21,593 nt of DNA, from the IMG/VR virus record IMGVR_UViG_3300008266_000698, positions 1 through 21,593 of that record; one strand, 5' to 3'. The translations under genes and the position numbers were made by a program. The notes beneath the pieces are model-generated. The model had not been told where the DNA came from and did not search any database. It worked only from the letters and a program-made list of their open reading frames with translations. Position 1 is the first letter of the stretch, and the number at the start of each line of letters is the position of its first letter. Shown piece after piece: positions 5,758-20,717 of this stretch. The DNA comes from a virus.

Positions 5758-5778
5758 AAAATTAAATCACCTTATTTA

Positions 5779-6564
5779 TTAACCACCTTCGTCGCCATTA
5801 TTTTCTTCCGGTGGTGATTCATTCAAAAAATCAACATTGATTTTTTCCGATAATTTTCCTACATATCCTGTTGCTGGATCTGTAAACATACCACCGACTG
5901 TTCGTATAGTATCAACTTCTGTCAATAATGTATTCATCATCTTATCAGCTCTTTGTGCAATAGAAGATATTGATCCAGATGCAATTATGTTTTGTAAATC
6001 CATTTCAGTTTTGAGTTCTGTAATGATTTGTTCATTTTGTGCAGAAAGTTGGTTACTCAATCTTTCAAATGCATCAGCACGAACAGATTGGTTTTCATTT
6101 TCACGTGCCCAAAGACTAACAGTTTCTTGCCATCTTTCTGATGCATTTTGCCAATCTACTAATTGTTCTCTTTGACTATCTACTATTGATTCCAATTCAG
6201 CAATTCTTCTTTCTAAATTAGCAATACTGTTAGGATTGCTTTCTACAATGTTTTGTAAATTTTGAAGTAATTCATTTTTAGCAATATCTTGAACATTTTG
6301 AATATCAGTAGCAGAAAGATTACCCAATGGAACTCCAGCAAAAATTCCATTTTCTATGTTTTTTAATTGATTAAACAAATTTTGTTCAGCATTTACAGCG
6401 TCAGGTAAAGAAGTAAAATTTGATTTAATAACAAAATCAAAACTTTCAGCTAAAAATCTTTGATCAACTACCGGTATTTCTATATTTCCTTTGTTTTGAA
6501 CAGATCGTTCATCGATATAACTTATTATTCTGTTTGTTGCAGAATCTCTTTGTAAATTACTCAT
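5779..6564 (-). CDS. Coiled-coil baseplate-associated protein, function unknown
   Basis: This is a 261-residue protein that I cannot assign to a family. Residues about 85-190 are strongly helical with heptad-like spacing (ANLERRIAELESIVDSQREQ at 115-134, then further Glu/Gln-rich segments), so a long coiled coil is likely. Residues 1-80 are mixed, and the tail is acidic (PPEENNGDEGG). There is no signal peptide or membrane segment. Its ATG overlaps the TGA of the DNRLRE-like gene in an ATGA junction, so the two are probably translationally coupled, and the gp7-like gene follows 21 bases later. Sitting between two wedge proteins, it may be a trimerising connector or an assembly factor. That is inference from context. 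Confidence 0.8.
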   Translation of the reverse strand: MSNLQRDSATNRIISYIDERSVQNKGNIEIPVVDQRFLAESFDFVIKSNFTSLPDAVNAEQNLFNQLKNIENGIFAGVPLGNLSATDIQNVQDIAKNELLQNLQNIVESNPNSIANLERRIAELESIVDSQREQLVDWQNASERWQETVSLWARENENQSVRADAFERLSNQLSAQNEQIITELKTEMDLQNIIASGSISSIAQRADKMMNTLLTEVDTIRTVGGMFTDPATGYVGKLSEKINVDFLNESPPEENNGDEGG

Positions 6565-7736
6565 CGCACAACCTTGAAGTAATGATTATTGTCAAAAATT
6601 TGAACATTATCCCCATCTTCACGTTCTACTTTAATTACAACTCTATAAAATCTTTCTGGTTGAAAAGAATCCATCCAAAGATTAAAATAACTACTTGTTC
6701 CATCACAACTAATTTTTGAACCAGTGTAATCAAACGGTAAAATTATTTCATCACTATGAGCATCACGAATCTCATAATAAGATGATGATGGTAAATAATA
6801 ATTTACAGTTTGATATGCAGTTGTTGTATAATTTTTTTGTGGATAACGTGAATTTGCATATATTCTAATTTTTGCCCTTTCTTTTTCTGCATAAAACTTT
6901 TTTAGTTTGACATTAAGATTCATGTTATCTTCAGCAACAGGTTGTAAACTTCCTGTAATAAATTCAGAATCATCCCAAACTACATTCAAACGTGGAACAT
7001 ATATTGTATTACTATCAGTTCCAAAAAATTTAAGACTATTCAATAAATTATTGGGAGAACTTTCAATTTCGTTACTAAACTTTAATAACATACCATCATT
7101 TTCAAATCTACCAGATCCAGTTACCCATCTTCTGGCAATGTTGGTAACATCCATATAAATATCTGTTGATTGAAATGAAAACGATTGTGTGCATTCTAAA
7201 TCATCATAATCCCACCATGTTCCGCCACCTTCGTGTGTAAAGTATGAAGATGTAACATTAGCAGTTAAATTTACACCAAAAAGTATGTTTGCATCTATCC
7301 AACTTTCAGAAATACCGTCCCATTCATATTGTGAAATGCTTGGAGGTATATCCCACTCTGTTCCAACTGTTTTTGATGTTCTATAACGCCAAGAAACCCC
7401 ATCTGTTGTATATGGTAAATTTACAAATTTACCAGTTCCATTAGTCCAAGATGAACTCAATGGATATGCATATATTATGTATTCTTGTGGTATTTCTCTA
7501 ATATCTGCAGTGATAAGAGACAAATAGTATTTTGCATTTTCAGATATTTTACCAGAGTTAATTCTATTTTCAACATCTGACATATCAAACTTTACAAGTA
7601 TTCTACTGTTGTAAATAGAAGAACCTGAACCAGGTGTTTCATGGGACAATTCCAACAAAGGATCTATACCAGTATTCATGGTATATTGTCTTTCATAAAT
7701 TGTAGCATCTCGCTGTGCAAAAATAGAATATATCAT
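6561..7736 (-). CDS. DNRLRE-like baseplate wedge protein
   Basis: This is a 391-residue protein. Residues about 8-255 follow the DNRLRE-type beta-sandwich pattern: DATIYE at the start, N.GIDPLLEL, SRILVKFDMSD at 44-54, SSSWTNGTGKF at 94-104, then DVTNIARRWVTGSG at 196-209 and GMLLKFSNE at 215-223. In known proteins this fold is found in carbohydrate-binding and surface-associated domains. Residues 265-391 form a second beta-rich domain ending in FDNNHYFKVVR. It begins inside the stop of gp6 (ATGA overlap) and ends inside the start of the coiled-coil gene, so it is tightly coupled to wedge genes. By position it could play the part of T4 gp8, but I see no sequence proof of homology to gp8. Confidence 0.82.
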   Translation of the reverse strand: MIYSIFAQRDATIYERQYTMNTGIDPLLELSHETPGSGSSIYNSRILVKFDMSDVENRINSGKISENAKYYLSLITADIREIPQEYIIYAYPLSSSWTNGTGKFVNLPYTTDGVSWRYRTSKTVGTEWDIPPSISQYEWDGISESWIDANILFGVNLTANVTSSYFTHEGGGTWWDYDDLECTQSFSFQSTDIYMDVTNIARRWVTGSGRFENDGMLLKFSNEIESSPNNLLNSLKFFGTDSNTIYVPRLNVVWDDSEFITGSLQPVAEDNMNLNVKLKKFYAEKERAKIRIYANSRYPQKNYTTTAYQTVNYYLPSSSYYEIRDAHSDEIILPFDYTGSKISCDGTSSYFNLWMDSFQPERFYRVVIKVEREDGDNVQIFDNNHYFKVVR

Positions 7737-9622
7737 CCGAATGACCTCGCTCTACCAACAATATCATTGTTTGGATATTTTATTTCAAAAATAGATGGAT
7801 CTAATGATGGAAACAAAACACCATCTTTTGTTGCTTGTTCTATGTTGTAAGCATGAGGAGAGTAACCCAAGTTCGTATCAAATAAATTTCTAATTTTTAC
7901 ATTTACTACGGTTTGAACACCAGGAACTCTATCTAATTCTGTGTATATGTTGCTTATCACAATAGGTTGATTTATTTGCCATTTGTTTACATCAAAGTAT
8001 TGTTTTAACCGGTCAATACAACGAAGAACTACTTGATTTGAATTTTGATCAGGTAAAGTTATTATGTCAAAATTTACACCTATATTGATAATATAAGCAT
8101 CACGAATGTTAATTGCGTCTGTTAGTATTCTATACCAATTCAAATAATTTTTTAGATTTTCTTTTGTAGCATTGTTTACTGTTGTAAGTTTACCATTTAC
8201 ATCATAACCAAGAACATAAAAATTTAGAGCCAAATCATTTTGAACTCTATCACTATTGAATATAGAATCCTTCGTTAATTGAGTATCTTTTGTAATATAT
8301 GCCTTTGCAATGGAACCATACTTTGACGGTAAACTATATGCACGGATTATGTAATCTTCTTTTGTAACTGCACGATTTTGTGCAGCAAAAGAAGCAACGG
8401 CATTTTGTCTAATTTCTTGTATATCTTCTTGAAATTTACCACCTGTTGCAGGTCTTGGATTTGTTACAGCTAAACTGGATACAATTTGACCATATAATAC
8501 AGGATCTAATCCGGTTGGATCTAAAACTACTATTCTATTCAGAACATTGTTCAATACTTCACTTGGAACATTATCTTCCGTTCCACCACCGATTGTATAG
8601 AAAAATGTTAATGTTGTATTGTTTGGTGCAAGACCATATGTTTTTGTATACAAAAAGTTTGAAGGATCTATGTTTATTGATAGATTTGGATTTGTCATAG
8701 GCAAAGAACCTCCGACCAAATCTGGATTTGGAATTAACAGTTCATCATCTACATCACTTATTCCGGCACCAAACTGTATTTCTACATTTCCATTTGCCAT
8801 CTGTCTTGAAGTAAATCTTCTAGGAACTTTTCTCAATTTAAGTAAGTATGGTGTTTCTGATCTATATTTACTTAATTGTTTGTCATTTCTTGGTATGTTT
8901 AACACTGGTTCAAATAGAGTATCTTGTGCCAAATTTGGAACGTGTTCCCATTTGTTTCCTTCTGTATCTATTGCATAAAGAATTTCTATTATATCAGTTT
9001 CTTCTATTGTAAATTTATCGTATGGTTTTGGATCCCCTGCACTAAATGTGGTAGATCTAATTGTTCCGGAAATGGCTTTTGCTTGCTTTCTTAAAAGCCA
9101 AAATGTAACTTCTCCCGTTGTATTATCTATTTCATACGGTGTTACTTCTGTTGGATCAAAACTACTACTTGACTTAAAATCAATATAATCTATTGTTCTA
9201 AATGTAATTGTTCCATCAGTTGTTGGTGAAACACGCATTCCAGGTTCTATTGCCATTGCATAATCATAATCTGGAACTATTTCAGTACCTACTTTTTTTG
9301 CAGGTAGAACTTGAAAAACATCCAATACTGTATTTGCTGCAACTCTATTTTTTGGTGAATAACCGAGAGAATGTGCAATGTTGAGTATATTTTGACGTTC
9401 ATTGGCAAACAGAATCATTGATTCTTGTAATGTAACATCTGTATAAAATGACAAAACATCCCCAACATAAGCTGCCATTTCCAAAAATAACATTCCAGGT
9501 GATGTTTCATTGAAATCTTGGTATGTATCTGGAAAATAGTTTTTAGAAAAATCAATCAAAGATTTTTTTAATGAATTGAAATCTCTATTTGAATAACGAA
9601 TATCTTTTTGGATTAAAGCCAT
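7733..9622 (-). CDS. 6: Baseplate wedge protein gp6 (baseplate J family)
   Basis: This is the gp6 / baseplate J-like wedge subunit, which forms the ring of the baseplate inner wedge with gp25 and gp53 in T4. The N-terminus has the usual sequence RYSNRDFNSLKKSLIDF, then FNETSPGMLFLEMAAYVGDV and LSFYTDVTLQESM. Near residue 420 there is the family segment NRAVTKEDYIIRAYSLPSKY. The product is 629 residues long, close to T4 gp6. I chose ATG 9620-9622 because AGGTGA (9628-9633) lies 5 nt before it. An in-frame GTG three codons upstream (9629-9631) would fall inside that ribosome binding site. It follows gp25 after a few bases and overlaps the next gene by ATGA, forming a wedge operon. Confidence 0.93.
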   Translation of the reverse strand: MALIQKDIRYSNRDFNSLKKSLIDFSKNYFPDTYQDFNETSPGMLFLEMAAYVGDVLSFYTDVTLQESMILFANERQNILNIAHSLGYSPKNRVAANTVLDVFQVLPAKKVGTEIVPDYDYAMAIEPGMRVSPTTDGTITFRTIDYIDFKSSSSFDPTEVTPYEIDNTTGEVTFWLLRKQAKAISGTIRSTTFSAGDPKPYDKFTIEETDIIEILYAIDTEGNKWEHVPNLAQDTLFEPVLNIPRNDKQLSKYRSETPYLLKLRKVPRRFTSRQMANGNVEIQFGAGISDVDDELLIPNPDLVGGSLPMTNPNLSINIDPSNFLYTKTYGLAPNNTTLTFFYTIGGGTEDNVPSEVLNNVLNRIVVLDPTGLDPVLYGQIVSSLAVTNPRPATGGKFQEDIQEIRQNAVASFAAQNRAVTKEDYIIRAYSLPSKYGSIAKAYITKDTQLTKDSIFNSDRVQNDLALNFYVLGYDVNGKLTTVNNATKENLKNYLNWYRILTDAINIRDAYIINIGVNFDIITLPDQNSNQVVLRCIDRLKQYFDVNKWQINQPIVISNIYTELDRVPGVQTVVNVKIRNLFDTNLGYSPHAYNIEQATKDGVLFPSLDPSIFEIKYPNNDIVGRARSFG

Positions 9623-9627
9623 TTTTA

Positions 9628-9633
9628 TCACCT
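9628..9633 (-). promoter_or_regulatory. Ribosome binding site deciding the gp6 start
   Basis: AGGTGA on the minus strand lies 5 nt before ATG 9620-9622. The upstream in-frame GTG at 9629-9631 is part of this site, so a start there is unlikely. Confidence 0.6.
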
Positions 9634-9639
9634 ATATTT

Positions 9640-10149
9640 TCATCGCGGTTCTATTGCCGCAATTTCAATTCTACCTATTGTAGATATAAATAGTCTTATT
9701 GGTAAATATATTGTTGTTTCTCTAAGTTTTAAGGTTAAATCTATTTGTATCGCATGATCGTTTTCGGCTAAATTTGATGCATCTGGATTTATATTAACTG
9801 TCAATTTTTCTATTGTTAAAAAAGGCATCCATGTATTTAATGCCTCTACAATATCAGATTTTATACTTTCTAAAAATTGATCTTCACTTGTTATATTTTC
9901 AAACAATATAGCTTTGAGATTTGTTCCAAAATCAGGAATCATATATCTCTCACCTCTTGTTGTTAATAACAAGTTTCTCACATTTGAAAACAACTGTTTT
10001 ACATTTGTTCTACTTTGAAAGAAAATACCCTTTGGATTATTAAAAGGCAATGTTACACCAACAAACTTGTTACCTTGTGTGGCGTTTCCTTCATTTATAG
10101 GTTTTTGAAAATAATTTATTCTATTTCCGGATCTTGAAAGTGGTCTCAA
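9640..10149 (-). CDS. 25: Baseplate wedge protein gp25 (GPW/gp25 family)
   Basis: This is the gp25 wedge component, the small lysozyme-like-fold protein that nucleates sheath polymerisation at the baseplate and contacts gp6. Its 169 residues carry the family core VRNLLLTTRGERYMIPDFG (about 57-75), then LKAILFENIT, a helical stretch ending in NTWMPFLTIEKL, and the C-terminal Glu-Pro-Arg that is strongly conserved in gp25 proteins. T4 gp25 is about 132 residues, so the extra length is mostly an N-terminal extension of about 40. The start codon is TTG (10147-10149), with GGGAG 7 nt before it. The next gene downstream is gp6, the usual partner. Confidence 0.95.
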   Translation of the reverse strand: MRPLSRSGNRINYFQKPINEGNATQGNKFVGVTLPFNNPKGIFFQSRTNVKQLFSNVRNLLLTTRGERYMIPDFGTNLKAILFENITSEDQFLESIKSDIVEALNTWMPFLTIEKLTVNINPDASNLAENDHAIQIDLTLKLRETTIYLPIRLFISTIGRIEIAAIEPR

Positions 10150-10152
10150 TTA

Positions 10153-10581
10153 TTATCTCCCTTTTTTTTCATCAATTTTTTTCATAAGTTCAGAATAATC
10201 TCTTGTAAGTGCACTCATTACTTCGTTAGGTATTTCTGTTTTATTGTAACCATTTGGAATAGCCGAACCTACTCTTTCATTCCCAAATCCTTCTGCCATA
10301 TCTGCAGTAAAAGTAAATTCATCTTCCATTTCATAACTGTCTTGAAGACTTCTTTTTGTTTCTGCCAACAATTCTTGTATAGAAGAAAATTCACTTTTTT
10401 GTTGTTTTGGTTTTACTACTTTTTTTGTTGATTGTGATTCGTTATACATAGATAAACCATGTTTTAACGTAGAAACATCATCTTTTTTTGTTTGTTTTTG
10501 AGAAATTTTCTTTTCAAGAGCATATTCGATTTCTTCCCTAATTATTTCTCTTATTTTAGTAAAAAAATTCTTCGTGTTCAT
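10153..10581 (-). CDS. Small helical phage protein, function unknown
   Basis: This is a 142-residue, charged, mostly helical protein. The first 30 residues are a basic and acidic amphipathic helix (FFTKIREIIREEIEYALEKK), which I associate with uncharacterised proteins next to gp25 in T4-like environmental phages. The middle is low-complexity and Lys/Gln-rich (KKVVKPKQQKSEF), followed by SSIQELLAETKRSLQD, and the end has EVMSALTRDYSELMKKIDEK. There is no catalytic motif, signal peptide or membrane segment. The start is clear: AAGGAG (10590-10595) overlaps the stop of the upstream gene and lies 8 nt before the ATG. Its place between the hydrolase and gp25 suggests a baseplate or assembly role, without direct proof. 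Confidence 0.82.
   Translation of the reverse strand: MNTKNFFTKIREIIREEIEYALEKKISQKQTKKDDVSTLKHGLSMYNESQSTKKVVKPKQQKSEFSSIQELLAETKRSLQDSYEMEDEFTFTADMAEGFGNERVGSAIPNGYNKTEIPNEVMSALTRDYSELMKKIDEKKGR
10157..10161 (-). promoter_or_regulatory. Ribosome binding site for TTG-started gp25
   Basis: GGGAG on the minus strand overlaps the end of the preceding 142-codon gene and lies 7 nt before a TTG codon. This spacing supports the unusual TTG start of gp25. Confidence 0.6.
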
Positions 10582-10593
10582 ACTAAAAACTCC

Positions 10594-13161
10594 TTATTCT
10601 TTTTCAACGATTTGATCGTATAAAACGTTTTTTAATGTTGGTAATATGGTTTTATTATCTATACTTCTATAATAACTATCAACAATCGGCGTTCTTCTGA
10701 ATTGTCCGTTCATTGTTGGCTCAACTTTTTGAGATCCAGCCTTTGGAATAACTTTTGTAAATACAACAAATGTTCCAGCTTTTGCACCACCACTAAAAGC
10801 CCATATTGAACTACCTTTTGCAGCAAATTTTCCACCGTCTCTACTAACAAATGAACTTGCACCAGTGTTTCCTCCAAAACGAGCAATAGTGCCATCAGGG
10901 TTAATATAAGGACAAACCTCAATGTGTCCACCACGACTTATTATAGAAACCTCCCATCCTCTTTGTGATAAAAAATGTTCTAATAATTTTTTTCCTTGTG
11001 AAGTTAATCCATCTTTTGTAAAATGAATACCACCTATAAAGTATACCATTATTGGATTTGGTAATAATGATTCTCTAACTGCAACAGGTATTTTTTCTCT
11101 ATTTACTTTTGTTTTCTTTTTTGGTTTTAATTTATTTCCATCTGGAACCATAACAACTTCATTTTCAGTTGTTTCTGAATAAGTTGCACTTTCTAAAAGA
11201 ATACCATATACATCTGTAAAATAATCACTTTTTCCACCTTTTACACCAAATCCCTTTTTATCCAAAAACTTTTTAACTGGAACACTTTTACCAGCAGAAT
11301 CCAAATAAGTTGGTACATTAGCAAAACATTCACTTGCTTCTTCTAATCCTACTTCTTTTAATTTTTTAAGTGAAGAATTAAAATATACATCGTTAATTTT
11401 ATTAGCAGCAGCTAAAGCAACCGGATCTCCTGGAAAAGTATATCCACCATGATTTATACAATGTTGTGTAAATATACCACACCAATGTGGTTGTTCAGCC
11501 CAATTAGCAAATCCTCCTTTGTTTTCACCGGCACCAAAAGATCCAATACCCCATTTATCCATATTATACCTTCCACCACTATAACCTTTGTATAACATTC
11601 TATGCTGTTCTGTTTGTGTATCAGCAACATAAGGAACTTTTTTATTCCAAACACCAACTTCTGTAAAATTCATTATTATTGGATAATCTATTAAATTAAG
11701 ATCTTCAGAATTTTTTGCAACAGGAACTGGAGTACCTGATATTAACTTTTCCCATTGGGCATTAAAATGAACTTTTACAGCACCGATAAGTTTTGTTTCG
11801 ATATTGTATTCGTCTTTTGCAAATCCCAATCCATCTGTTTTTGCTTTTTGATCACGAATACCATAATACCCATTTGATGTTGGATATTTTGGCACTTTGT
11901 AATCTATATGTGATGCCCACATATTGATACTTGCTCCAGGAGCAACAATTTTACCATTAAGTTCTCTTAATTTTCCAGTTGTAAGTGCAGCACTATTTTC
12001 TACATTTGTTGGTGCACCTTCTGGTGTTGTATTTTCTTTTAATTTTGGTTCAAATTTTTTCTCAGGATCATCAGGATTTGTTGCTGGGTTTTCATCTTTC
12101 GGTGTATCAGCTGGTGGTGCATCGGGTGTAAAACCCCATCCCGCATAAAGTGCAGCCAATTCTTCTGATTTTGTATCATCAACTTGTTTTTTTAACCAAG
12201 CAACTGCAGATTCGTTTTCATAAAATACTTCTTTTGCAGTGTAGGTTACATCTTTTACTGTTATATTACCAATATCGTCAAAAAATATACTTTTTTTCGT
12301 GTCATCTGGATCGGCTATACTAACACGGGCACCATATTTGGAATCTCTTTTTAGAAACCAAGCCAATCCATTAACATTATATTTTTTTCCAGATGGTGGA
12401 GTTGTTGGTGTTCCAGACTCCCCCAACGCTTTTTTAACAATTTCTAATTTTTCAGAATCAGACTTACTTGAAAATTCAGAAAGATTTATTACAGTTGATC
12501 CAATGGTAAATGTATCATCTAACCATTCTTGATCACCACCGCCATCTGTGGTGGATTCAGTTCCCTTTGTATCTACTTGATATGTTACACCTTTATATGT
12601 TACCGTAACACCTTTACTGCGATTTCTTCGAGAATAATTTATACTAACTTTTTCATCTTTGTTTGGTGGATCTTCTGTATTGTCATCATCGGAATTGTCA
12701 TTTGAACCAAATTGTCCTGTTCTTTCTTCATTGGCTTCTCCGCCAGATTCTTCATTACCACCAGGTTCTTCTTTATCAAGTTCTTCATCTGTTGGTCCCC
12801 TATCATCGGGTTTTTCAATTTCTTCGTCTTCTTCTTTATTGTCTCCGAATAAATCTCTGACAAAATTACCTAAGTTTTCATCATCAGAACTATCATCATC
12901 TCCACCAGATGTATTATTACCGCCAGATGTATTATTACCGCCAGATGTATTATTACCGCCTTGATAAAAAACACTATCTGGATTTTTTGATTTATCTTGA
13001 CCACCATCGTCATCAGTTCTTTTATTAGATTGATCGTCTTTTACTTCATCAGAAACTCTATCAATTTTAGTGTTATCTTGTAAATTGCTATTCAATGCAC
13101 GTCTAGCAATCCTAATATCAGGAGCACTATCTTGTTCTATATCATCTACTGTTCTTGGCAT
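10594..13161 (-). CDS. Virion-associated cysteine hydrolase (CHAP/NlpC-P60-like), probable tail lysin
   Basis: This is an 855-residue multi-part protein. Residues 1-60 are charged. Residues 68-87 contain three GGNNTS repeats, and 88-170 form a very acidic linker. Two small beta modules cover 170-292. Residues 293-347 (ending in ELAALYAGWGFTPD) match a module at the start of the neighbouring 728-residue protein. After a Pro/Asp-rich linker, residues about 400-800 look like an enzyme. HWCGIFTQHCINHGGY places Cys561 at the head of a helix, as in CHAP and NlpC/P60-like peptidases and amidases. His746 in RGGHIEVC is followed by IARFGGNTGASSF, the usual Gly-His-strand then GGN pattern. The 185-residue Cys-His spacing is long and implies an insert. 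It probably cuts peptidoglycan during entry. The fold assignment is by motif only. Confidence 0.8.
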   Translation of the reverse strand: MPRTVDDIEQDSAPDIRIARRALNSNLQDNTKIDRVSDEVKDDQSNKRTDDDGGQDKSKNPDSVFYQGGNNTSGGNNTSGGNNTSGGDDDSSDDENLGNFVRDLFGDNKEEDEEIEKPDDRGPTDEELDKEEPGGNEESGGEANEERTGQFGSNDNSDDDNTEDPPNKDEKVSINYSRRNRSKGVTVTYKGVTYQVDTKGTESTTDGGGDQEWLDDTFTIGSTVINLSEFSSKSDSEKLEIVKKALGESGTPTTPPSGKKYNVNGLAWFLKRDSKYGARVSIADPDDTKKSIFFDDIGNITVKDVTYTAKEVFYENESAVAWLKKQVDDTKSEELAALYAGWGFTPDAPPADTPKDENPATNPDDPEKKFEPKLKENTTPEGAPTNVENSAALTTGKLRELNGKIVAPGASINMWASHIDYKVPKYPTSNGYYGIRDQKAKTDGLGFAKDEYNIETKLIGAVKVHFNAQWEKLISGTPVPVAKNSEDLNLIDYPIIMNFTEVGVWNKKVPYVADTQTEQHRMLYKGYSGGRYNMDKWGIGSFGAGENKGGFANWAEQPHWCGIFTQHCINHGGYTFPGDPVALAAANKINDVYFNSSLKKLKEVGLEEASECFANVPTYLDSAGKSVPVKKFLDKKGFGVKGGKSDYFTDVYGILLESATYSETTENEVVMVPDGNKLKPKKKTKVNREKIPVAVRESLLPNPIMVYFIGGIHFTKDGLTSQGKKLLEHFLSQRGWEVSIISRGGHIEVCPYINPDGTIARFGGNTGASSFVSRDGGKFAAKGSSIWAFSGGAKAGTFVVFTKVIPKAGSQKVEPTMNGQFRRTPIVDSYYRSIDNKTILPTLKNVLYDQIVEKE
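12905..12958 (-). repeat. Three perfect 18-bp tandem repeats
   Basis: The + strand unit CCAGATGTATTATTACCG occurs three times without mismatch at 12905-12922, 12923-12940 and 12941-12958. On the coding strand this gives three GGNNTS hexapeptides at about residues 68-87 of the 855-residue hydrolase, just before an acidic linker. The repeat keeps the reading frame, so copy number could vary without breaking the gene. It probably forms a flexible spacer. Confidence 0.95.
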
Positions 13162-13179
13162 ATTTTTTCTCTATTATTT

Positions 13180-15366
13180 TTACCAATATAATATAACTGA
13201 AACTTGTCTGTTGCCAGAAGTGTATGCTTTTCTATTTACAACAAATGCAGTTGATCCTCCACCATCTCCATGAGCAGCAATTATTACGTTACCACCAATC
13301 GACTTAAAATACTCAACCAATCCTTGCCCAAGTTGATTTCCAGAATGACCACTTAAACTTGCACCCGCAAACCAAGTTTTTTTACCATCTTTAAGTGTTG
13401 CCTGTCCGATAAATGGCCATCCTCTATCGTCTTTTGAGAAACTTGCAGTTTGAACTACACCTTTTTCAACAACAGTAGAACTACCACCTGCCATTAAAAG
13501 ATCTACAGGTGCATTTGGTTTTAATTTTTCAGTTGATTTATCCCAATATGTTGATGAATATACTAATGATGGTTGTCCTCTACTAATAGCAACCGATATA
13601 TTGCCACACGTTTTTGTTTTTGCACCATAATTTTTGCCATTCCAAATAAACGCACAAGTTGGTTGTAGAGTTCCCCATCCAGTGCTAGCAGCTTCCCATG
13701 TTCCCCAGTTGATATAATTTTTATATTTTTCTGGCCAAACTTCAAATCCCATTCCACTTATTTTACCATCATAATCTTTTGGACCCATGTAAGCACCTTT
13801 AACTGCTTGTGGGTTAGGGTTTCTTGGTGTAAATCCCTCAAAATGATATTTGAAACCAGTTCCTTCATTACTTCCACGAATTTGTACTCCTTTTGAATCA
13901 ACAACTGGAGTAATTTTTCCAAATCCAATGCTAAAGTTGTTAATTAAAGTAAGTGCTATAGTACCATTTCCATATTTATATTGAATTACACCACCACTTG
14001 TTGTTGATAAAACACCACCACCAACAGATTCACCTTTCTTGAATGATGTATTAACATCATATGTTTTGTCTTTCCAAACACCTTCACTTGTAATAAATTC
14101 ACCATCTATTTTTACAATACGGTTTCCGGCATCTTCTTCAAATCCACCACCTTTTTTGAAACGATCCAAACCGATACTTTGATTTGTAAGTTTTTTTGCA
14201 CCTTTATTATTAGTACAATCAAAATCTCCGTATATTTGTTTTGGTGCAAAAGAAAGTGATGTTAATGATAACCCACTAGCAACAAATCCATCAACTTCAA
14301 AATCTGCCATATTAACAGGAAATACTGTTATTTGAATGTTATTACTTATCCAATAACTACCAGGTTTACCAGTTTTTGTATCTTTTACTGGTTTTGGTAT
14401 TCCATTTAATGATGTTAATTGATTGTTAGAACAATCAAATCTTGTTACACCAGTTGAAGTAACAACACCCAAACCGGCTAAACTTGTAATTTTATTGCCA
14501 CCGCAATTAAACCCACCTGGACCAAAAGAAGTTATTCCGTTTCCTTCTAATGTTGTTAATCCACAGCCAGATACATCATAGATATATTCTTTTTGACTCT
14601 TATTTGTATCAGTTATTCCCTTTATTATTTTTGGTCCACCGGCCAATGATGTTAATTTTTTATTATCAGTAGCAAAAAAACTACCAACTTCTTCTGGAGA
14701 ACCAACTAATGAAGTTAATTCATTTTTTGAAATATCAAATTGTCCAGTGACTTTTTTAGGACCACCTTCAAGTGATGAAAGTTTTACACCCCTGCATATA
14801 AAATTACCACCAATAGTTCCAAATTTTACAGTAAATTTACCATCTTTTACTGACGGTAACGATTTGTCTCCTGAAACTAAATTTATTGTAACATCACCTG
14901 GAATGTCAATGGTTCCATCGGCTTGAATTTTTGGCTCAACACCACCTGTAATTTTAATAGCGGCCTTTTGATTTGCTATAACTGGTTTTCCAGTTTTAGA
15001 ATCCTTTTGAACAACACCTTTAACAACTTTATATCCAAACAATATGTTAAGTTTATCAGTTAAACTTGTAATTTCTTCGTTGGACAGTCCACCACTACCA
15101 GTATCAGACTTATCAACTGCATTATCCACATTACCTTCGTTTTCAGGATCATCTGTGGGTTTTTCTTCTACTGATCCAGTTTTATCATCTTTGTCTGGAG
15201 TCAATCCCCATGTTCTTGCAAGTGCAACTAATTCTGCATTATCAGATGCTAACATCCAATCTAACGCAGTATCTCCCGCATCATTTACTATTTCAAGTGC
15301 AGAGTATTTTTCACCACGAACATTGATATACCCTTCATTATCAAATTCAAATGAAACTTTTGCCAT
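13180..15366 (-). CDS. LRR protein with phosphodiester glycosidase-like C-terminus
   Basis: This is a 728-residue protein. Residues 6-57 are a small module shared with the downstream hydrolase (ELVALARTWGLTPD). Residues 58-95 are an acidic linker. Residues about 186-385 are leucine-rich repeats of the NNxLTSLxGxPxxV type, with clear copies at LSSLEGGPKKVTG, LTSLVGSPEEVG, LTSLAGGPKIIKG and NNQLTSLNGIPKPV. Residues about 620-728 match the phosphodiester glycosidase (NAGPA-like, Pfam PF09992) pattern: RGWPFIGQATLKDGK, then LGQGLVEYFKSIGG and HGDGGGSTAFVVN (DGGGS at 701-705), then a GNRQVSVILYW ending. In characterised relatives this fold cleaves sugar-phosphate diester links. The target here is unknown but could be host surface glycan. 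Its ATG directly abuts the TAA of the 1185-residue gene. Confidence 0.82.
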   Translation of the reverse strand: MAKVSFEFDNEGYINVRGEKYSALEIVNDAGDTALDWMLASDNAELVALARTWGLTPDKDDKTGSVEEKPTDDPENEGNVDNAVDKSDTGSGGLSNEEITSLTDKLNILFGYKVVKGVVQKDSKTGKPVIANQKAAIKITGGVEPKIQADGTIDIPGDVTINLVSGDKSLPSVKDGKFTVKFGTIGGNFICRGVKLSSLEGGPKKVTGQFDISKNELTSLVGSPEEVGSFFATDNKKLTSLAGGPKIIKGITDTNKSQKEYIYDVSGCGLTTLEGNGITSFGPGGFNCGGNKITSLAGLGVVTSTGVTRFDCSNNQLTSLNGIPKPVKDTKTGKPGSYWISNNIQITVFPVNMADFEVDGFVASGLSLTSLSFAPKQIYGDFDCTNNKGAKKLTNQSIGLDRFKKGGGFEEDAGNRIVKIDGEFITSEGVWKDKTYDVNTSFKKGESVGGGVLSTTSGGVIQYKYGNGTIALTLINNFSIGFGKITPVVDSKGVQIRGSNEGTGFKYHFEGFTPRNPNPQAVKGAYMGPKDYDGKISGMGFEVWPEKYKNYINWGTWEAASTGWGTLQPTCAFIWNGKNYGAKTKTCGNISVAISRGQPSLVYSSTYWDKSTEKLKPNAPVDLLMAGGSSTVVEKGVVQTASFSKDDRGWPFIGQATLKDGKKTWFAGASLSGHSGNQLGQGLVEYFKSIGGNVIIAAHGDGGGSTAFVVNRKAYTSGNRQVSVILYW

Positions 15367-18300
15367 TTAACCTATCTCCAATGATATTTTAATTGTTGGA
15401 ACTGGTAAAGGAGTGTATGTTATACCACCTTCGCCAAATTTTAATGGTGTTTTTGTAGTTGATACATTTGCACCATCAGTCTTTGAACCTTCAAGACCAA
15501 GTGGTGTACCTACCGGTGTTATTCGTGTTTCAGCCTTTCTTATTTCTTCTATATTGGTAAATGCATCCGCATTGGCAATCTGTTTTCCATCTTTATCAAA
15601 TGTTGCACCTCCTGGAACAGTTGTTTTATTTGTTACAGCAAGTGGTACAAGTTCATCACCAATATAAATAGGTCTTTGTTGTTTTGTTGGGTAGTTTGGA
15701 TTTTCTTTCTTAATTTTTTCAATCAATATGGATGTAGGTGTAAAGTATTTTTCATTGAAACTTTTACCGCTTGAATTGTATACACCTATCCTTGCAAGAC
15801 CACGAAGATATTTTGTTACCCTAAAAGGTTCTAATAAATTAAAATCTCCACTGGCAAAAGCATATCTGTATTTCAATTCTTTTGTCAATCCAAGAGTTTT
15901 TCTTTGTGATTCACTTACATTTGGATCACCTTCAACTACCCAATTTGTATCAGAATGTTTGAATATAAATCCAGACGGTGGCGTTCCCTTAAATACGGGT
16001 AATCCTGTTTCAGGATTTTGTCCAATATCTTCTATCCATGGGTGAGTGTATATTATGTATGTTCCATATTGCAATACACCCTTTACACCACTTGGAGGCG
16101 CTCCTGTTGAATCTTCAACTACATATTTGTCTTCAACATTGTATTTTTGTCTCCAATTCGGATCACCAGCACCTGGAACTCCAGGAGGTAGTGAGGCCGC
16201 TGAATCTAATAAATCAGCATAAGGATCCTCTGTCAATTCTTTTGCAGAATCATATATGTCTTTGAAGAAATCTTCTTTTTCAAAGTCTTCTCTAGTATCT
16301 ACCAATTCATCATATACTCCAGTAAGTAATGCCTCATCTTGAAGTATATCCGGTGAATTTTTCACTTGTTCATATTTTTGCAATAATCTATTTTTAACAC
16401 TTATTCCTTTTGCAAGTGATTCTTTGAATTTTAATGCTTTATCTATAGCAATTCCACATTTTACTATAGCAAGACCATTTACTTCTGTATGTGTTATGTC
16501 CTTACCAGTTACAGGATCCTTTTTGTAAGGTTGTGGTGCAGCTTTTATGTTAGTAAATCCCATTGAAAGTGCAATAGTTTGTTTCATTTTTGGATCAAGG
16601 GTTCCACCGCCTGGAGTTACTTTTCCAGTTTTCTTGTCATATGCATTATAGTTCTCCCAAACTTCCGCATTTGGTCCCCATTTATTGAGCAAACTTTGAC
16701 CTACTTTATCGAATAAACCTTCAGCAAATTTTTCTTTCTCACCAGGTCCATTAAACCTCTTTCCACTTATTAAATCGGTAATATCGCCAGCAATGGGAAT
16801 TACATCACCCAATACTTCCTCACTAACACCTAATTGTTTTGAGATTTTTGCCTTTAATTCTGGTGGAAGTGAATTGTAATGTTGAAATCCTTTTGTTGAT
16901 AATTCATATAAGTTCTTTGCACCACTTAAAACTTCATAATATCTAATTATTTCGGATTCATCTATTCCTATTAGTGCAGCTGTGCTAAAAATAAATGTTT
17001 GAACAGGAGCTGGTAAATTTTTGAAATCTACTGCATCAAATATAGATAAAAATTGTTTCTTCTTGTATAAGTTGTAAACTGCCAATCCATTTTTTGCAAT
17101 ATCAAAACCTTGTTCTAATGTAATTGGATTTTGACCAAAATTTTGTTCCGCCCAAGAACCAGGAATTACATTATCATATGAAACTGTTTCAGTTACTTCT
17201 TCACCTCTGTCTAAAATATGTGGCAATTCCTCACTAACTTCTTCATAAATTTTTGTAGCGGCATTGAATTTTCTATAAACTAATCTTGGTATACTATTAC
17301 CAATAAATTTGTAATCTATTTGAAATGGAATTACACCAGACCTTATTGGGTCAGTTCCCTCATATTGTTGTTGATATTTTGTGTTATCTAGATTTATTTT
17401 AAGTTCCATACTACCATTTGGAAACAATCCAGATGATATTGGATCTGCACCAGTTTCTGATCCATAAGTATTTGGTATTGTAATGGTGCAAATATCTCTG
17501 TTGGTGTTATAGTCATAGAATAATTCATTTGCGGTAAATCCATCTACAAATCCAGGAGATGTTATTTTTCCAATAGAGATTGACTTTATCGGTATAAAAT
17601 CCCCTTCTTTATTTATAGATTTAATAATAATTTGATTCAAAACTATATTATTACCTTCTGTTTTTCTATATGATGGATTTTCTACTATAAGTTTTAGATT
17701 GTCTTTATCAACAATTTGTAATTTTTTTGTTACAACTGATCCTGGAGACAATTCTGAAAATGCTTCACCGGTTGCAAATTCTCTTAATTCTTTGGGTAAA
17801 TCATCTAATGATTTTACATTCTCTGCCTCTTTTAATACATATTCCTGTAAAGCATCGTAGTTACCATCACTTACCATTTTTTCTATTTCTATTATCTTAT
17901 TAACAACCCATATTATTCGTTTAATAGTTTTTGGGCTAGTTCCTAAAAAATTAGCAACTTTTATTTGTAATCCTGGTGATAATTTTTCGTAATCAAGTAA
18001 TGTTCTTAAATTTGCAAGAAGTCTACCAGTTGCTATTGCAGATTTTCCTTGAGCATATAATTGATATATTTTTGCAGCACTAGATAATGCCTTTAATCCG
18101 GATTTAATCAGAGTTGCATTTTGTTTCTTAGTTAAGAAATCTAATGCAGTAAATGGATAACCAATTACTGTTGAAAAAAGACTTGCCTCTCTATCTTTTT
18201 CTTCTTCTAATTTTTGTCTCGCATCTTCTTCACTATAACCTTTAGATCCAGATGGATATAAACCTTCAACTTGACTTATCCCCCAAGCAACACCTTCTCC

Positions 18301-18924
18301 GATGAAACCAGCAACACCAACTAAAGCACTACTTACATATTTTAGTGAATCGGTAACAAAAGAATCAATCGATCCAGTCACACCATTTAATAATCCACCT
18401 TCTCCCAATAATGAGTTTGATTTTATTTTAATTGTTAATTTTTTGATTTCATCAGTTGGTTTATCCGATGGTGGATCTAAAATTAAATCACCTGGTACTT
18501 TTTTTCCAAAATTTACCCAAACTTCAATTTCACTAGCAACTCTAAATACAGCACTTGATGTTTCCAGTATTCCAAATTTATCTATGATAATTGATGGAAC
18601 TGATAATGGTATTGGTTTTATTTCAGCATTCCAATCTAAAGCATACTTTGAAGCATATTGTGTTACTTCTGAATCATCATAAAAAGAATCGTTAAATTGT
18701 GATAAATCTCCAGGATCGGTTGGACCGTTATCAGTAAAGTGTGCAGCATTAACAAGACTTAATTTCCAAGTATTGAGAGCATTTTTTGTTCCGCCTGGTT
18801 CAAATACAACATAATCAAGAAGATTTATAGTATCTCCTTGAAAAACTTCAAGTTCGTATTTATCAGGTGTTGTTGCAGAACCTGGTATAAATTTAACTAA
18901 ATTTTTATTCCATGATATTCCCAT
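15367..18924 (-). CDS. Very large virion protein with internal helical repeats, unrecognised
   Basis: This is an 1185-residue protein with no family I can name. Residues 1-170 are beta-rich. Residues 197-216 (SSALVGVAGFIGEGVAWGI) are strongly hydrophobic and could insert in a membrane or bury in the virion. A helical block at about 265-385 is followed by a beta-rich part (400-560), then helices at 605-745 and at 820-905 (acidic), and a Pro/Gly-rich C-terminus. Three similar helical units can be seen: LSPGLQIKVANFLGTSPKTI at 315-334, LPAPVQTFIFSTAALIGIDE at 637-656, and LPPELKAKISKQLGVSEEVL at 686-705, each preceded by an [IV]YxLY-like or LYEL helix. The gene lies between the gp5-like spike and the two hydrolases. 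A hub-linked or ejected protein is possible, but this is inferred. Confidence 0.78.
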   Translation of the reverse strand: MGISWNKNLVKFIPGSATTPDKYELEVFQGDTINLLDYVVFEPGGTKNALNTWKLSLVNAAHFTDNGPTDPGDLSQFNDSFYDDSEVTQYASKYALDWNAEIKPIPLSVPSIIIDKFGILETSSAVFRVASEIEVWVNFGKKVPGDLILDPPSDKPTDEIKKLTIKIKSNSLLGEGGLLNGVTGSIDSFVTDSLKYVSSALVGVAGFIGEGVAWGISQVEGLYPSGSKGYSEEDARQKLEEEKDREASLFSTVIGYPFTALDFLTKKQNATLIKSGLKALSSAAKIYQLYAQGKSAIATGRLLANLRTLLDYEKLSPGLQIKVANFLGTSPKTIKRIIWVVNKIIEIEKMVSDGNYDALQEYVLKEAENVKSLDDLPKELREFATGEAFSELSPGSVVTKKLQIVDKDNLKLIVENPSYRKTEGNNIVLNQIIIKSINKEGDFIPIKSISIGKITSPGFVDGFTANELFYDYNTNRDICTITIPNTYGSETGADPISSGLFPNGSMELKINLDNTKYQQQYEGTDPIRSGVIPFQIDYKFIGNSIPRLVYRKFNAATKIYEEVSEELPHILDRGEEVTETVSYDNVIPGSWAEQNFGQNPITLEQGFDIAKNGLAVYNLYKKKQFLSIFDAVDFKNLPAPVQTFIFSTAALIGIDESEIIRYYEVLSGAKNLYELSTKGFQHYNSLPPELKAKISKQLGVSEEVLGDVIPIAGDITDLISGKRFNGPGEKEKFAEGLFDKVGQSLLNKWGPNAEVWENYNAYDKKTGKVTPGGGTLDPKMKQTIALSMGFTNIKAAPQPYKKDPVTGKDITHTEVNGLAIVKCGIAIDKALKFKESLAKGISVKNRLLQKYEQVKNSPDILQDEALLTGVYDELVDTREDFEKEDFFKDIYDSAKELTEDPYADLLDSAASLPPGVPGAGDPNWRQKYNVEDKYVVEDSTGAPPSGVKGVLQYGTYIIYTHPWIEDIGQNPETGLPVFKGTPPSGFIFKHSDTNWVVEGDPNVSESQRKTLGLTKELKYRYAFASGDFNLLEPFRVTKYLRGLARIGVYNSSGKSFNEKYFTPTSILIEKIKKENPNYPTKQQRPIYIGDELVPLAVTNKTTVPGGATFDKDGKQIANADAFTNIEEIRKAETRITPVGTPLGLEGSKTDGANVSTTKTPLKFGEGGITYTPLPVPTIKISLEIG

Positions 18925-18926
18925 AA

Positions 18927-19115
18927 TTACACTGGTCCTCCAGAATTTTCGTCATCGCCGCCAACAAGAGAAGTTCCATAATCAAATTTTGGATCAATAT
19001 CTCCTAAAATTTGATCTATTAGTTTTATTTTTTCTTGTTCAATATCAGCAATATCAGCAAGAAGTGTTAGTGGATCATCGTTTTCCAAAGCCCCTTCACC
19101 TGTGTCTACCAACAA
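18927..19115 (-). CDS. C-terminal part of gp5-like protein in -1 frame (or separate small ORF)
   Basis: This is a 62-codon acidic segment (LVDTGEGALENDDPLTLLAD... ending in GGDDENSGGPV). It has no ATG, only two adjacent TTG codons at 19110-19115. The same frame stays open upstream to a TGA just before the A5 run at 19187-19191. The 24 codons between that run and the TTG (IKEVQQSNEKILQSQFIKEG and onward) almost all end in A or T, like real genes here, and continue the coiled-coil character of the gp5-like protein. The best reading is that this is the true C-terminus of the gp5-like protein, displaced by a one-base frame change. The alternative is a separate TTG-started gene overlapping the gp5 stop; a GAAGG sequence lies upstream at a loose distance. 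Confidence 0.5.
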   Translation of the reverse strand: MLVDTGEGALENDDPLTLLADIADIEQEKIKLIDQILGDIDPKFDYGTSLVGGDDENSGGPV

Positions 19116-20374
19116 ATTAGAACTATCACCTTCTTTAATAAATTGACTTTGTAGAATTTTTTCATTTGATTGTTGAACTTCTTTAATTTTTCTATTTGAC
19201 TTTGTAACTCTACTAAATCAGAATGTGCCGTTGAAAAATCAGATATGTTTATTGGAACACCAGAAGGACCTGTTCCAGTTGGATGTGTTTGTTGTGTAAT
19301 TGCTCTTGTAACATTTAATAGTATTTGGCATAAATCATTTAACCAAGTCATTGTTCTTTTTCCCAACAATATCGGTTCTATTGCATTTATGCCCAATGAT
19401 ATTTTTTGTGTTGATTCGATTTCAACTACTTGTTTTCCGTCAAGAGATATACCCTTTTCAGAAGAAAAGCCAATACCCTCTTTACTGAAACCAATTAGCT
19501 CTTGCTTACGAGAATTAAAAATTATTCTATCAGAAGCAATCATAACTGAATTTCCACCAAATTCATTTTTAGTAAAAAGATTTATACTTTTATCTGTTAT
19601 TGATGGTGTATATGTGGATGCTGGTTCAAATTTTACATATTGTCCAGATGTCATCCAAATAGATGAATCATCTTCATCTATATTTTCTAATATAAATTCG
19701 TTTCTTGGTTTTAATTCTGGATTTGTTCCATTTGAAATTATCAAAATTGGATTACCTATTTGACCTAACCCCTTTTTCCAAGTTGGAACTTGCGGATATT
19801 TTCTTCTTTCATCTAATGTTGATCCAAATCTTATAGATTGCCCCCATCTACCTTCGAGGATTATATCTCCGGAATAAGGTTGTATTGGATAAATGTCTTT
19901 TCGTTCTACAAAAATTGGATCAATAGTTGTTGGTGTATCAAATTTTGTATTAGTTGAATGTGGAATACCATCTTCTGCATCATTTCTTTTTACACGATTA
20001 CCAGGTGAAGTTCTTTCTACCCAGTAAGTTACTCCAGGAATACCATTATGATGAATTGATGATTGAACAGAAACAGGATTTGTATAGTAGTATTCTTGTG
20101 AAACACCACCTGCACTGGCATAAGGGGATGGTGCCTTTGTAAGCATAACAACCTCTCCCCTAATTGGCATATTTTTTATATTGGCATCAAATGCACGAGC
20201 ACGTATAACATCTTTATGCCCTTGTCCCATTGCACCCAATAATCTACATAATACCGTGTATAGTGCAGTTTTATCACGACCTTCGTAATCTACATCCAAT
20301 ACTTCAGCAGGAAACCACTCACGAGGAAACCCATCAATTATCGTTACTTGCGGATTAAACGGTAGGCCGCTCAC
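19106..20374 (-). CDS. 5: gp5-like baseplate spike/hub protein (OB-fold, no lysozyme domain)
   Basis: This is the baseplate central spike or hub protein of gp5 type. The N-terminal half is an OB-fold-like region: RAFDANIKNMPIRGEVVML (about 62-80) and YPIQPYSGDIILEGRWGQSI with RFGST (164-188), a stretch I associate with gp5 counterparts of T4-like environmental phages. Residues 280-340 form short strand repeats (IGFSKEGIGFSSEKGISLDG) like the start of a spike beta-helix, followed by TMTWLNDLCQILLNVTRAIT and THPTGTGPSG. I see no T4-type lysozyme domain. I chose GTG 20372-20374 because AGGAG lies 7 nt before it; the ATG two codons upstream is only 1 nt from that site. The last 26 codons after the A5 run at 19187-19191 have atypical Lys-rich content and many C- or G-ending codons, so the real C-terminus is probably in the -1 frame. 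Residue numbers count from the upstream ATG. Confidence 0.82.
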   Translation of the reverse strand: MSGLPFNPQVTIIDGFPREWFPAEVLDVDYEGRDKTALYTVLCRLLGAMGQGHKDVIRARAFDANIKNMPIRGEVVMLTKAPSPYASAGGVSQEYYYTNPVSVQSSIHHNGIPGVTYWVERTSPGNRVKRNDAEDGIPHSTNTKFDTPTTIDPIFVERKDIYPIQPYSGDIILEGRWGQSIRFGSTLDERRKYPQVPTWKKGLGQIGNPILIISNGTNPELKPRNEFILENIDEDDSSIWMTSGQYVKFEPASTYTPSITDKSINLFTKNEFGGNSVMIASDRIIFNSRKQELIGFSKEGIGFSSEKGISLDGKQVVEIESTQKISLGINAIEPILLGKRTMTWLNDLCQILLNVTRAITQQTHPTGTGPSGVPINISDFSTAHSDLVELQSQIEKLKKFNNQMKKFYKVNLLKKVIVLICW

Positions 20375-20717
20375 TATCATTCTCCTCTTGATCGTTTTGA
20401 ATTTCTTGTATACCCTTTAATAGAGCTTCTTTTTCTTCATCAGTCAAAAATGAGGAGGATTCTTCACCTTTATCACCCATAGCCCGTTGTATAACTGCTG
20501 CTAGTTTCACTAAATGTTCATCATTTTTTACCGAAACCTCCATAAAATCTTTTATTGCAGGAACTAGTATTGCCGCATCACTTATATTGTTTAACATGGG
20601 CTTTAAGTCAGCAATCAAAAGATTTATCTGACGATCCTTTTTCTTCTGATTATCGTAAATATCTTTTAACAAATCAGAAAATTTTTTACTTCCAAAGATT
20701 TCTTCATCAAATTTCAT
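20355..20717 (-). CDS. Small helical phage protein, function unknown
   Basis: This is a 120-residue, mostly helical protein (FSDLLKDIYDNQKKKDRQIN, then LIADLKPMLNNISDAAILVP and VIQRAMGDKGEESS, with an acidic end). It has no catalytic motif, signal peptide or clear membrane segment and is not recognised. Amphipathic spacing in the first 60 residues suggests a helical bundle or oligomer. It starts 11 bases after the sigma gene stop, with no good ribosome binding site, and its last codons overlap the gp5-like gene by about 20 bases. It may be an accessory to spike or hub assembly, by position only. Confidence 0.78.
   Translation of the reverse strand: MKFDEEIFGSKKFSDLLKDIYDNQKKKDRQINLLIADLKPMLNNISDAAILVPAIKDFMEVSVKNDEHLVKLAAVIQRAMGDKGEESSSFLTDEEKEALLKGIQEIQNDQEENDSERPTV
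20382..20386 (-). promoter_or_regulatory. Ribosome binding site deciding a GTG start
   Basis: AGGAG on the minus strand is separated by 7 nt from GTG 20372-20374 but by only 1 nt from ATG 20378-20380. Spacing favours the GTG as the start of the gp5-like gene. The site lies inside the end of the preceding 120-codon gene, so translation may be coupled. Confidence 0.6.

Follow-up and report, generated by a model that had tools for sequence, protein, structure and literature searches.

An exchangeable, probably tail-borne hydrolase slot in the baseplate gene cluster of an IMG/VR virus

The tail lysozyme of phage T4, which is part of the hub protein gp5, belongs to the GH24 family, and the annotation of Staphylococcus phage K (Kayvirus) contains adjacent CHAP, cysteine protease and phosphodiesterase genes beside the baseplate genes. 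Virion lysins have been described (PMC5380687), tail lysins include endopeptidases and phosphodiesterases (PMC10194240), depolymerases predicted to be NAGPA-like have been reported from prophages of Curtobacterium (PMC9862828), and surface proteins of Bacillota join NAGPA with an NlpC/P60 peptidase (PMC12419801; further literature in PMC11488536 and PMC12024695). We analysed the 21.6-kb DNA of an uncultured T4-like phage, the virus record IMGVR_UViG_3300008266_000698 (positions 1 to 21,593; this whole stretch is the window), in which two adjacent genes for large proteins of 728 and 855 amino acids (aa) belong to a baseplate gene cluster. As judged from sequence, these genes probably constitute an exchangeable hydrolase slot that is borne by the tail. 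We consider it fairly likely that they form part of a cassette at the tail that serves envelope penetration and whose catalytic modules can be exchanged, a reading that builds on the observed gene order, on the exchange of modules between relatives, on homology to NAGPA, and on the association of cysteine loss with the presence of other wall peptidases.

Gene order and module exchange

Along the minus strand, the presumed hub gene comes after two small genes and is followed by the genes of a 1185-aa, the 728-aa, the 855-aa and a 142-aa protein, and then by gp25 and gp6. The two large proteins are organised as follows:

13180-15366, minus strand: gene of the 728-aa protein, an open reading frame with N-domain, leucine-rich-repeat (LRR) region and C-terminal NAGPA module
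15013-15360, minus strand: N-domain of the 728-aa protein (residues 3-118), also present in the 855-aa protein
14032-15069, minus strand: LRR region (residues 100-445; LRR_4 E 0.0023, below cut-off)
13183-14031, minus strand: NAGPA-like phosphodiester glycosidase module as predicted by PF09992, Foldseek and VIA-align (residues 446-728, 283 aa)
13249-13269, minus strand: GDGGGST motif (residues 700-706), with D701 and S705 invariant in alignments A10 and A11
10594-13161, minus strand: gene of the 855-aa protein, an open reading frame with acidic low-complexity N-terminus, common N-domain and C-terminal cysteine-hydrolase-like domain
11932-12297, minus strand: N-domain copy in the 855-aa protein (residues 289-410), found by pairwise comparison

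Both reading frames had been named by an initial annotation of the window, and both are real. As reading frames and gene order recur in relatives, the two-gene arrangement is not due to chance. One IMG/VR contig (L008/L010) equals the window over the aligned stretches, save 49 bases in the presumed hub gene, six more contigs are 66% identical to the 728-aa protein (as L002-L007) and 94% to the 855-aa protein (as L011-L016), and more distant relatives were found beyond these. Among named phages, tblastn with the 728-aa query gave six records, with the best places in the N-terminal and repeat part, and the 855-aa protein, the NAGPA modules of L059 and L027 and the CHAP-like domain of L018 had no match. 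Scans of genome contigs with gp6 yielded no relative.

The exchange of modules is best seen in close relatives. When the window is compared with L016, identity is 97.6% for gp6, 93.8% for the 855-aa protein and 94.4% for the N-terminal part with the LRR region, whereas it is only 30% for the NAGPA module, the drop lying near residue 450 of the 728-aa protein. In L020, a GH24 domain (Phage_lysozyme, PF00959, E 4.7e-8; E 4.5e-11 for the record as a whole) takes the place of the NAGPA module on a stem that is 62% identical to that of the window (residues 100-445). A separate NAGPA gene of L074 and the module of L019 share 75.5% identity, whereas the CHAP-like proteins of these two loci are only 28% and their gp25 proteins 47.6% identical. 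Among the relatives compared, the LRR region is 61-94% identical and bears differing catalytic modules. The idea of a detachable cassette, which the initial annotation had put forward, is thus well supported by a 30% identical module beside 93-98% identical neighbours and by the GH24 domain of L020.

A survey of the slot covered 98 loci, 68 of which contain a gene in the gp5 position plus gp25 or gp6 and are considered here. The following slot contents were found:

L016, L029, L033: NAGPA and CHAP-like
L020: GH24 and CHAP-like
L057: M15-NAGPA and CHAP-like
L074: NAGPA and CHAP-like-M15
L075: NAGPA and GH24-CHAP-like-M15 (GH24 E 7e-21, VanY E 2.1e-5)
L086: GH19-like (PF00182 E 0.014, below cut-off) and CHAP-like-M15
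L087: M15-CHAP-like
L084: CHAP-like only
L078 (Microcystis phage Mel-JY01): GH19-like alone, annotated as 'putative chitinase', no Pfam match
L082: M15_4 (E 3.9e-4, below cut-off)
L089, a more distant relative: C39-like peptidase (C39_2 E 9.6e-7)

The GH19-like slot proteins of L078 and L086 resemble one another (4e-14). As a point against a widespread cassette, the slot of most distant relatives among these 68 loci, of which only some slot proteins were put to Pfam, holds no recognised enzyme, and the cassette is thus not general to the group.

The N-domains of the 728-aa and 855-aa proteins are 29% identical over 123 columns (pairwise E 2.5e-9), and this common domain is possibly a docking domain. 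Furthermore, the C-terminal part (1003-1160) of the 1185-aa protein is fused ahead of an LRR-type protein in L019, L020, L029 and L033, and the presumed hub carries LRR repeats after it in L074 and L075. Such fusions among cassette proteins fit the idea that they are parts of one structure.

Could both genes instead encode lysis enzymes, i.e. endolysins, that are merely sited in the tail cluster and are not virion parts? CHAP-like, GH24, M15 and GH19 domains are typical of endolysins as well, and this agrees with such a role. What argues against it is the large size of both proteins, their common N-domain, the fusion to a neighbouring cassette protein, the presumed hub of L074/L075 with its fused LRR repeats, and the existence of probable lysis genes elsewhere in a close relative, and we therefore regard endolysins as very improbable here. 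No signal sequence was recognised by eye in the 728-aa or 855-aa protein of the window. The probable lysis genes concern a separate NAGPA gene that close relatives carry and that exceeds the PF09992 cut-off; on the contig that is identical to the window, it is just a cut piece (L162). In L163, this gene (1153-1809) encodes 218 aa with a hydrophobic N-terminus (E 4.3e-15) and lies near a gene of an SLT transglycosylase (2035-2613, PF01464 E 1e-6), so that the two could possibly be a periplasmic lysis pair. Mel-JY01 also has a separate NAGPA gene (L161 1492-2124, minus strand). The position near SLT suggests that NAGPA acts at the wall in these phages and that the endolysins are to be sought elsewhere than in the large proteins.

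The NAGPA-like module

Family profiles and a structural model identify the C-terminal domain of the 728-aa protein as NAGPA-like (PF09992), with a predicted glycosidase activity. In the window protein itself, PF09992 is found by Pfam below the cut-off (E 0.018, 15.7 bits, cut-off 25), while the homologue L059 (30% identical, E 5e-28) exceeds it (E 1.6e-5, 25.6 bits) and L083 stays just below (24.9 bits). With the AlphaFold model of the module, the first eight Foldseek rows are NAGPA (the best is 6pki with E 1.0e-3, none lower) and the ninth is a Synechocystis hypothetical protein. VIA-align gave eight rows with Z 7.0-9.8, followed by a drop to 3.2; six of the eight are named NAGPA/DUF2233 (such as 6pku with 9.8 and 3ohg with 8.4), and 5h3k (9.8) and 6ozd (7.0) are unnamed. 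Identity to the named members in these structural alignments is 14-19%. The profile A10, built from 14 modules, among them L083 and two separate NAGPA genes, gave six PDB matches (best 1.5e-6), each of them either NAGPA/DUF2233 or 6u11, the NAGPA entry from Xenopus, and it places GDGGGST onto the DGGGS stretch of 3ohg, 6pku, 6pky and 6u11. The D-G-G-G-S motif presumably has a role in the NAGPA family. A profile of slot members only matched the separate NAGPA genes with E 3.6e-5 (probability 71, 33 columns), compared to E 0.81 for the control A5. The phosphodiester glycosidase-like protein that had been proposed for this gene hence has the fold expected of it.

Some results weigh against this assignment. 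The mean pLDDT (predicted local distance difference test) of the model is 50, with 55-89 in blocks of the C-terminal core. The profile of the 11 NAGPA slot members alone matched no PDB chain, and a five-row slot profile reached 6pki with E 1.4, behind dioxygenases at 0.012. In addition, the motif differs among the modules (GDGGGST, ADPGGSY, SDGSASR), its middle being variable, and some NAGPA modules may therefore have altered activity.

Two loci deserve mention in this context. L083 contains a 1388-aa protein (4173-8339) in which a CHAP-like domain that has degenerated is joined to NAGPA at the C-terminus; it is flanked directly upstream by a CHAP-containing gene (2621-4153) and directly downstream by a second gene resembling NAGPA (8383-9027, below cut-off with PF09992 E 3.8e-4). 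In L059, where the gene context is a different one, the region 1045-2709 adjoins a NAGPA gene and contains a stretch that looks intein/Hint-like by eye.

A tail-located NAGPA module might also bind or remodel a host-specific surface glycan, so that only the CHAP-like protein would cut peptidoglycan and the rapid exchange of NAGPA modules would reflect host-range evolution. LRR stems commonly act as scaffolds for binding, the motif varies, and the module has diverged far more than the proteins around it (30% versus 93-98%), all of which would agree with such a role. NAGPA-type prophage depolymerases have also been proposed to strip receptor modifications (PMC9862828). On the other hand, a GH24 lysozyme substitutes for the module on the same stem, D701 and S705 are invariant, and lysozyme or GH19-like enzymes fill the slot elsewhere. 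We thus regard surface-glycan binding or remodelling as unlikely, although the alternatives to wall penetration are not all mutually exclusive with it.

A cyanobacterial host, to which the nearest named relative Mel-JY01 points (gp6 69%, presumed hub 60% identical), is no more than a possibility: NblA (PF04485) and PF00124 were not found in any of the 13 records, among them Mel-JY01, and gp6 shares 44% identity with a Flavobacterium phage as well.

The cysteine-hydrolase-like domain and second wall peptidases

The C-terminus of the 855-aa protein is predicted to be a papain-like cysteine hydrolase, probably of the CHAP type:

10597-12009, minus strand: papain-like/CHAP-like cysteine hydrolase domain (predicted, within residues 385-855), with a long Cys-to-His stretch
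11479-11481, minus strand: C561, predicted nucleophile; C in 14 of 21 homologue rows, S, A or D in 7
10924-10926, minus strand: H746, predicted catalytic His; H in 17 of 21 rows, aligned with the CHAP His of a sister phage
10867-10869, minus strand: N765, predicted third catalytic residue, kept in 21 of 21 rows

Within the C-terminal 471 residues, C561, H746, E748 and N765 are invariant in 11 of 11 aligned rows. The most recurrent family is TIGR02594, which we take to be CHAP-like; it was found in six of 14 members (best E 0.0018, below cut-off) and, at the Cys motif, in the window (E 0.054, 13.8 of 70.55 bits needed). CHAP itself (PF05257) was found in one of 14 members with E 0.13, and L084 reached 16.9 bits (cut-off 26). 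The first VIA-align rows contain an S. aureus amidase (6.9), PcsB (5.7), 2lrj (5.5), entries of PCAT1-type peptidases and the hub CHAP domain of phi812 (5.0), the CHAP and C39 labels of these neighbours being in part our own presumption. Other papain-like proteases (UfSP, SpeB, viral deubiquitinases) follow at Z 4-5. As all these neighbours belong to one fold class, VIA-align does not separate CHAP from C39. The profile A9 aligned the His and Asn motifs with those of a CHAP protein from a sister phage (E 0.002, probability 14). It is because of the conserved residues and the sub-threshold family and fold matches that we call the domain papain-like and probably CHAP-type. The CHAP/NlpC-P60-like hydrolase of the initial annotation therefore stands with respect to the Cys/His pair (11 of 11 rows), and its family is suggested by matches that stay below cut-offs and at Z of 6.9 or less.

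Several searches speak against the family assignment. Pfam found no family in the domain of the window, a PDB profile search gave no true match, and plain Foldseek with the model gave nothing meaningful. The AlphaFold model has a mean pLDDT of 50, which is too low to read the arrangement of Cys and His, and the first seven VIA-align rows (Z 5.0-6.9) are all below 8. Profile-profile comparison of A7 with a poor alignment of six CHAP sequences failed (E 0.52), and trimmed CHAP-like profiles compared with five CHAP sequences gave E 0.8 and 0.71.

The active-site cysteine is not universal, and its absence follows a pattern. Twenty-one CHAP-like rows were drawn from the slot-survey loci, excluding the near-duplicates L030-L032, L056, L073 and L077, and counting twice one contig that is present as L048 and L081. 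Cys and His occur together in 14 of these rows; the others have Ser/Tyr (L074, L075, L086, L083), Ala/His (L057, L087) or Asp/His (L082). All seven cassettes that lack the Cys contain another wall peptidase when Pfam, local hidden Markov models (HMMs) and motifs are combined, namely M15 in six and CHAP in one. M15 was detected by Pfam in L074, L075, L082 and L087, mostly below the curated cut-off, and in L086 by local HMM (2e-24) and motif. L083 has the CHAP domain in the adjoining gene (PF05257 E 1.1e-6, just below cut-off). M15 was found neither by Pfam in 15 Cys-bearing records nor by motif and local HMM in the Cys-bearing loci and the window. A CHAP search of 13 records, including eight Cys-bearing ones, matched among the latter only L084's own domain. 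For M15, Fisher's test gives p 1.3e-4 (6/7 Cys-lacking, 0/14 Cys-bearing), with rows that are related and contigs that are partial. Where retained, the Cys thus seems to be of importance. The strength of the association is reduced by the fact that Pfam alone finds M15 in four of seven Cys-lacking records, several contigs being fragments, that M15 of L057 was recognised by motif and similarity to L087 (1e-8) and not by Pfam, and that there may have been perhaps only two or three independent losses of the Cys.

These rows are also relevant for the possibility that the CHAP-like domain is chiefly a structural platform and catalytically dispensable, the true cutter being the second enzyme, whichever a cassette has. 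The Cys is missing from seven of 21 rows, in four of which the His is missing too, and the domain passes no family cut-off, which would agree with a platform. In the 14 rows where no second wall peptidase was found, however, Cys, His, Glu and Asn are kept, and the Cys is missing only where a second wall peptidase was found. A mainly structural role is thus rather doubtful.

As a side observation, the N-terminal parts of three CHAP-like proteins (L074 6607-7536, L083 4173-5312 and the start of L075 6621-10139) resemble alpha/beta hydrolases when inspected by eye; for the segments of L074 and L083, Pfam gave no convincing match.

Proposed mechanism and relation to known systems

How could such a cassette function? 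In the envelope-penetration reading that we favour, the common N-domain would probably dock both large baseplate-cluster proteins to the same part of the tail. The cysteine hydrolase of the 855-aa protein would cut peptide or amide bonds of peptidoglycan, and the glycosidase of the 728-aa protein would cut a glycosidic bond, be it a sugar-phosphate link or another one, of the wall or of a wall-attached polymer. Upon contact, the tail would present both enzymes, resulting in a local opening of the wall. The LRR stem of the 728-aa protein may serve as a constant holder, on which the C-terminal module is swapped for NAGPA variants or for a GH24 lysozyme, and other phages may fill the same slot with a GH19-type enzyme. 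Catalysis, substrates, virion location and docking are all predictions from sequence in this mechanism. More tentative, and in our view somewhat short of an even chance, is the wider idea of a contractile-tail 'tool holder', an LRR-stem protein of the baseplate cluster with a C-terminal slot for interchangeable NAGPA and lysozyme, in which NAGPA, as a tail-borne wall enzyme, and cysteine hydrolase together replace the lysozyme and the hydrolase decays to a scaffold whenever another peptidase joins. If true, wall-penetration enzymes of T4-like tails evolve as swappable parts on a fixed stem, and contractile phages have NAGPA-type glycosidases among their tail enzymes. Matched natural experiments would be at hand in close relatives with a single differing catalytic module and in homologues that have or lack the active-site cysteine, and the bond cut by NAGPA-type phage enzymes becomes directly testable.

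The neighbouring genes of the cluster are the following:

19106-20380, minus strand: presumed baseplate hub/spike in the gp5 position, based on gene order; hydrolase domain not found
15367-18924, minus strand: 1185-aa cassette protein, matching no recognised family
10153-10581, minus strand: conserved 142-aa gene between cassette and gp25; its local HMM matches most of the 68 loci with a gp5-position gene
9640-10149, minus strand: gp25 baseplate wedge (PF04965 E 6.8e-10)
7733-9631, minus strand: gp6 baseplate wedge (phrog_219 E 3.6e-23)

A 391-aa protein of the baseplate cluster (6561-7736) has a weak match to carbohydrate-binding CBM96 (E 0.0019, below cut-off). The Mel-JY01 gene annotated as 'tail lysozyme' (PP395634.1 162980-163483) is a gp25 homologue by position and local similarity and served as one seed of the gp25 HMM; the label is probably a legacy name.

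The presumed hub has 424 aa in the window and 500 aa in relatives, since the window lacks 49 bases near 19184 compared to L008, which leads to a frameshift after residue 399; this gap is either a strain variant or an assembly error. The hub protein had been annotated as gp5-like, and support for this identity was not found in the sequence: hhalign with T4 gp5 gave E 0.37, i.e. homology was undetected, a PDB search gave no match, and none of 15 members matched PHROG. The absence of a lysozyme domain from this protein, also part of that annotation, was borne out, as Pfam found no hydrolase domain in the window hub or in an intact 500-aa homologue. A hidden lysozyme was also sought with HMMs of GH24, M15, GH19, NAGPA and CHAP-like domains in window reading frames of at least 80 aa, and only the two reported domains appeared. 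To say that the two enzymes stand in place of the gp5 lysozyme is thus a statement about gene position, because homology to T4 gp5 was undetected.

The cassette is like the T4 gp5 hub and tail lysozyme in that a wall hydrolase is encoded in the baseplate region, which in the relatives L020 and L075 includes GH24. It differs from T4 in that the enzymes are separate proteins after the presumed hub gene, the hub being without detectable gp5 homology or lysozyme domain. None of the titles and abstract beginnings searched describes NAGPA among the baseplate genes of a contractile tail; most subscription journals lay outside this search, and a precedent is possible. Nevertheless, the claim of the initial annotation that no described baseplate has such a pair goes too far in view of the phage K cluster and of published NAGPA depolymerases (PMC9862828): a tail-cluster pair of peptidoglycan and phosphodiester enzymes has been annotated, and NAGPA phage depolymerases have been described. 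Like phage K, the window has adjoining genes for a predicted peptidoglycan-type and a phosphodiester-type enzyme near baseplate genes, but phage K belongs to a different phage family and its enzyme is annotated as phosphodiesterase, not NAGPA. The hub CHAP domain of phi812 (9eum) is among the structural neighbours of the 855-aa domain (Z 5.0). With NAGPA/DUF2233 (PF09992), the module shares fold neighbours and the DGGGS motif, whereas identity to the named members is 14-19% and motif variants occur in relatives. The Curtobacterium systems (PMC9862828) likewise include NAGPA as a predicted phage envelope enzyme; as differences, they reside in prophages whose host genus is Gram-positive, a length of 427 aa is given for one of the two depolymerases, and the excerpted account mentions neither a CHAP partner nor module exchange. 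The Bacillota proteins (PMC12419801) are cellular and contain a TelC-type domain, unlike the window proteins, but they share with them the pairing of NAGPA with a papain-like peptidoglycan peptidase.

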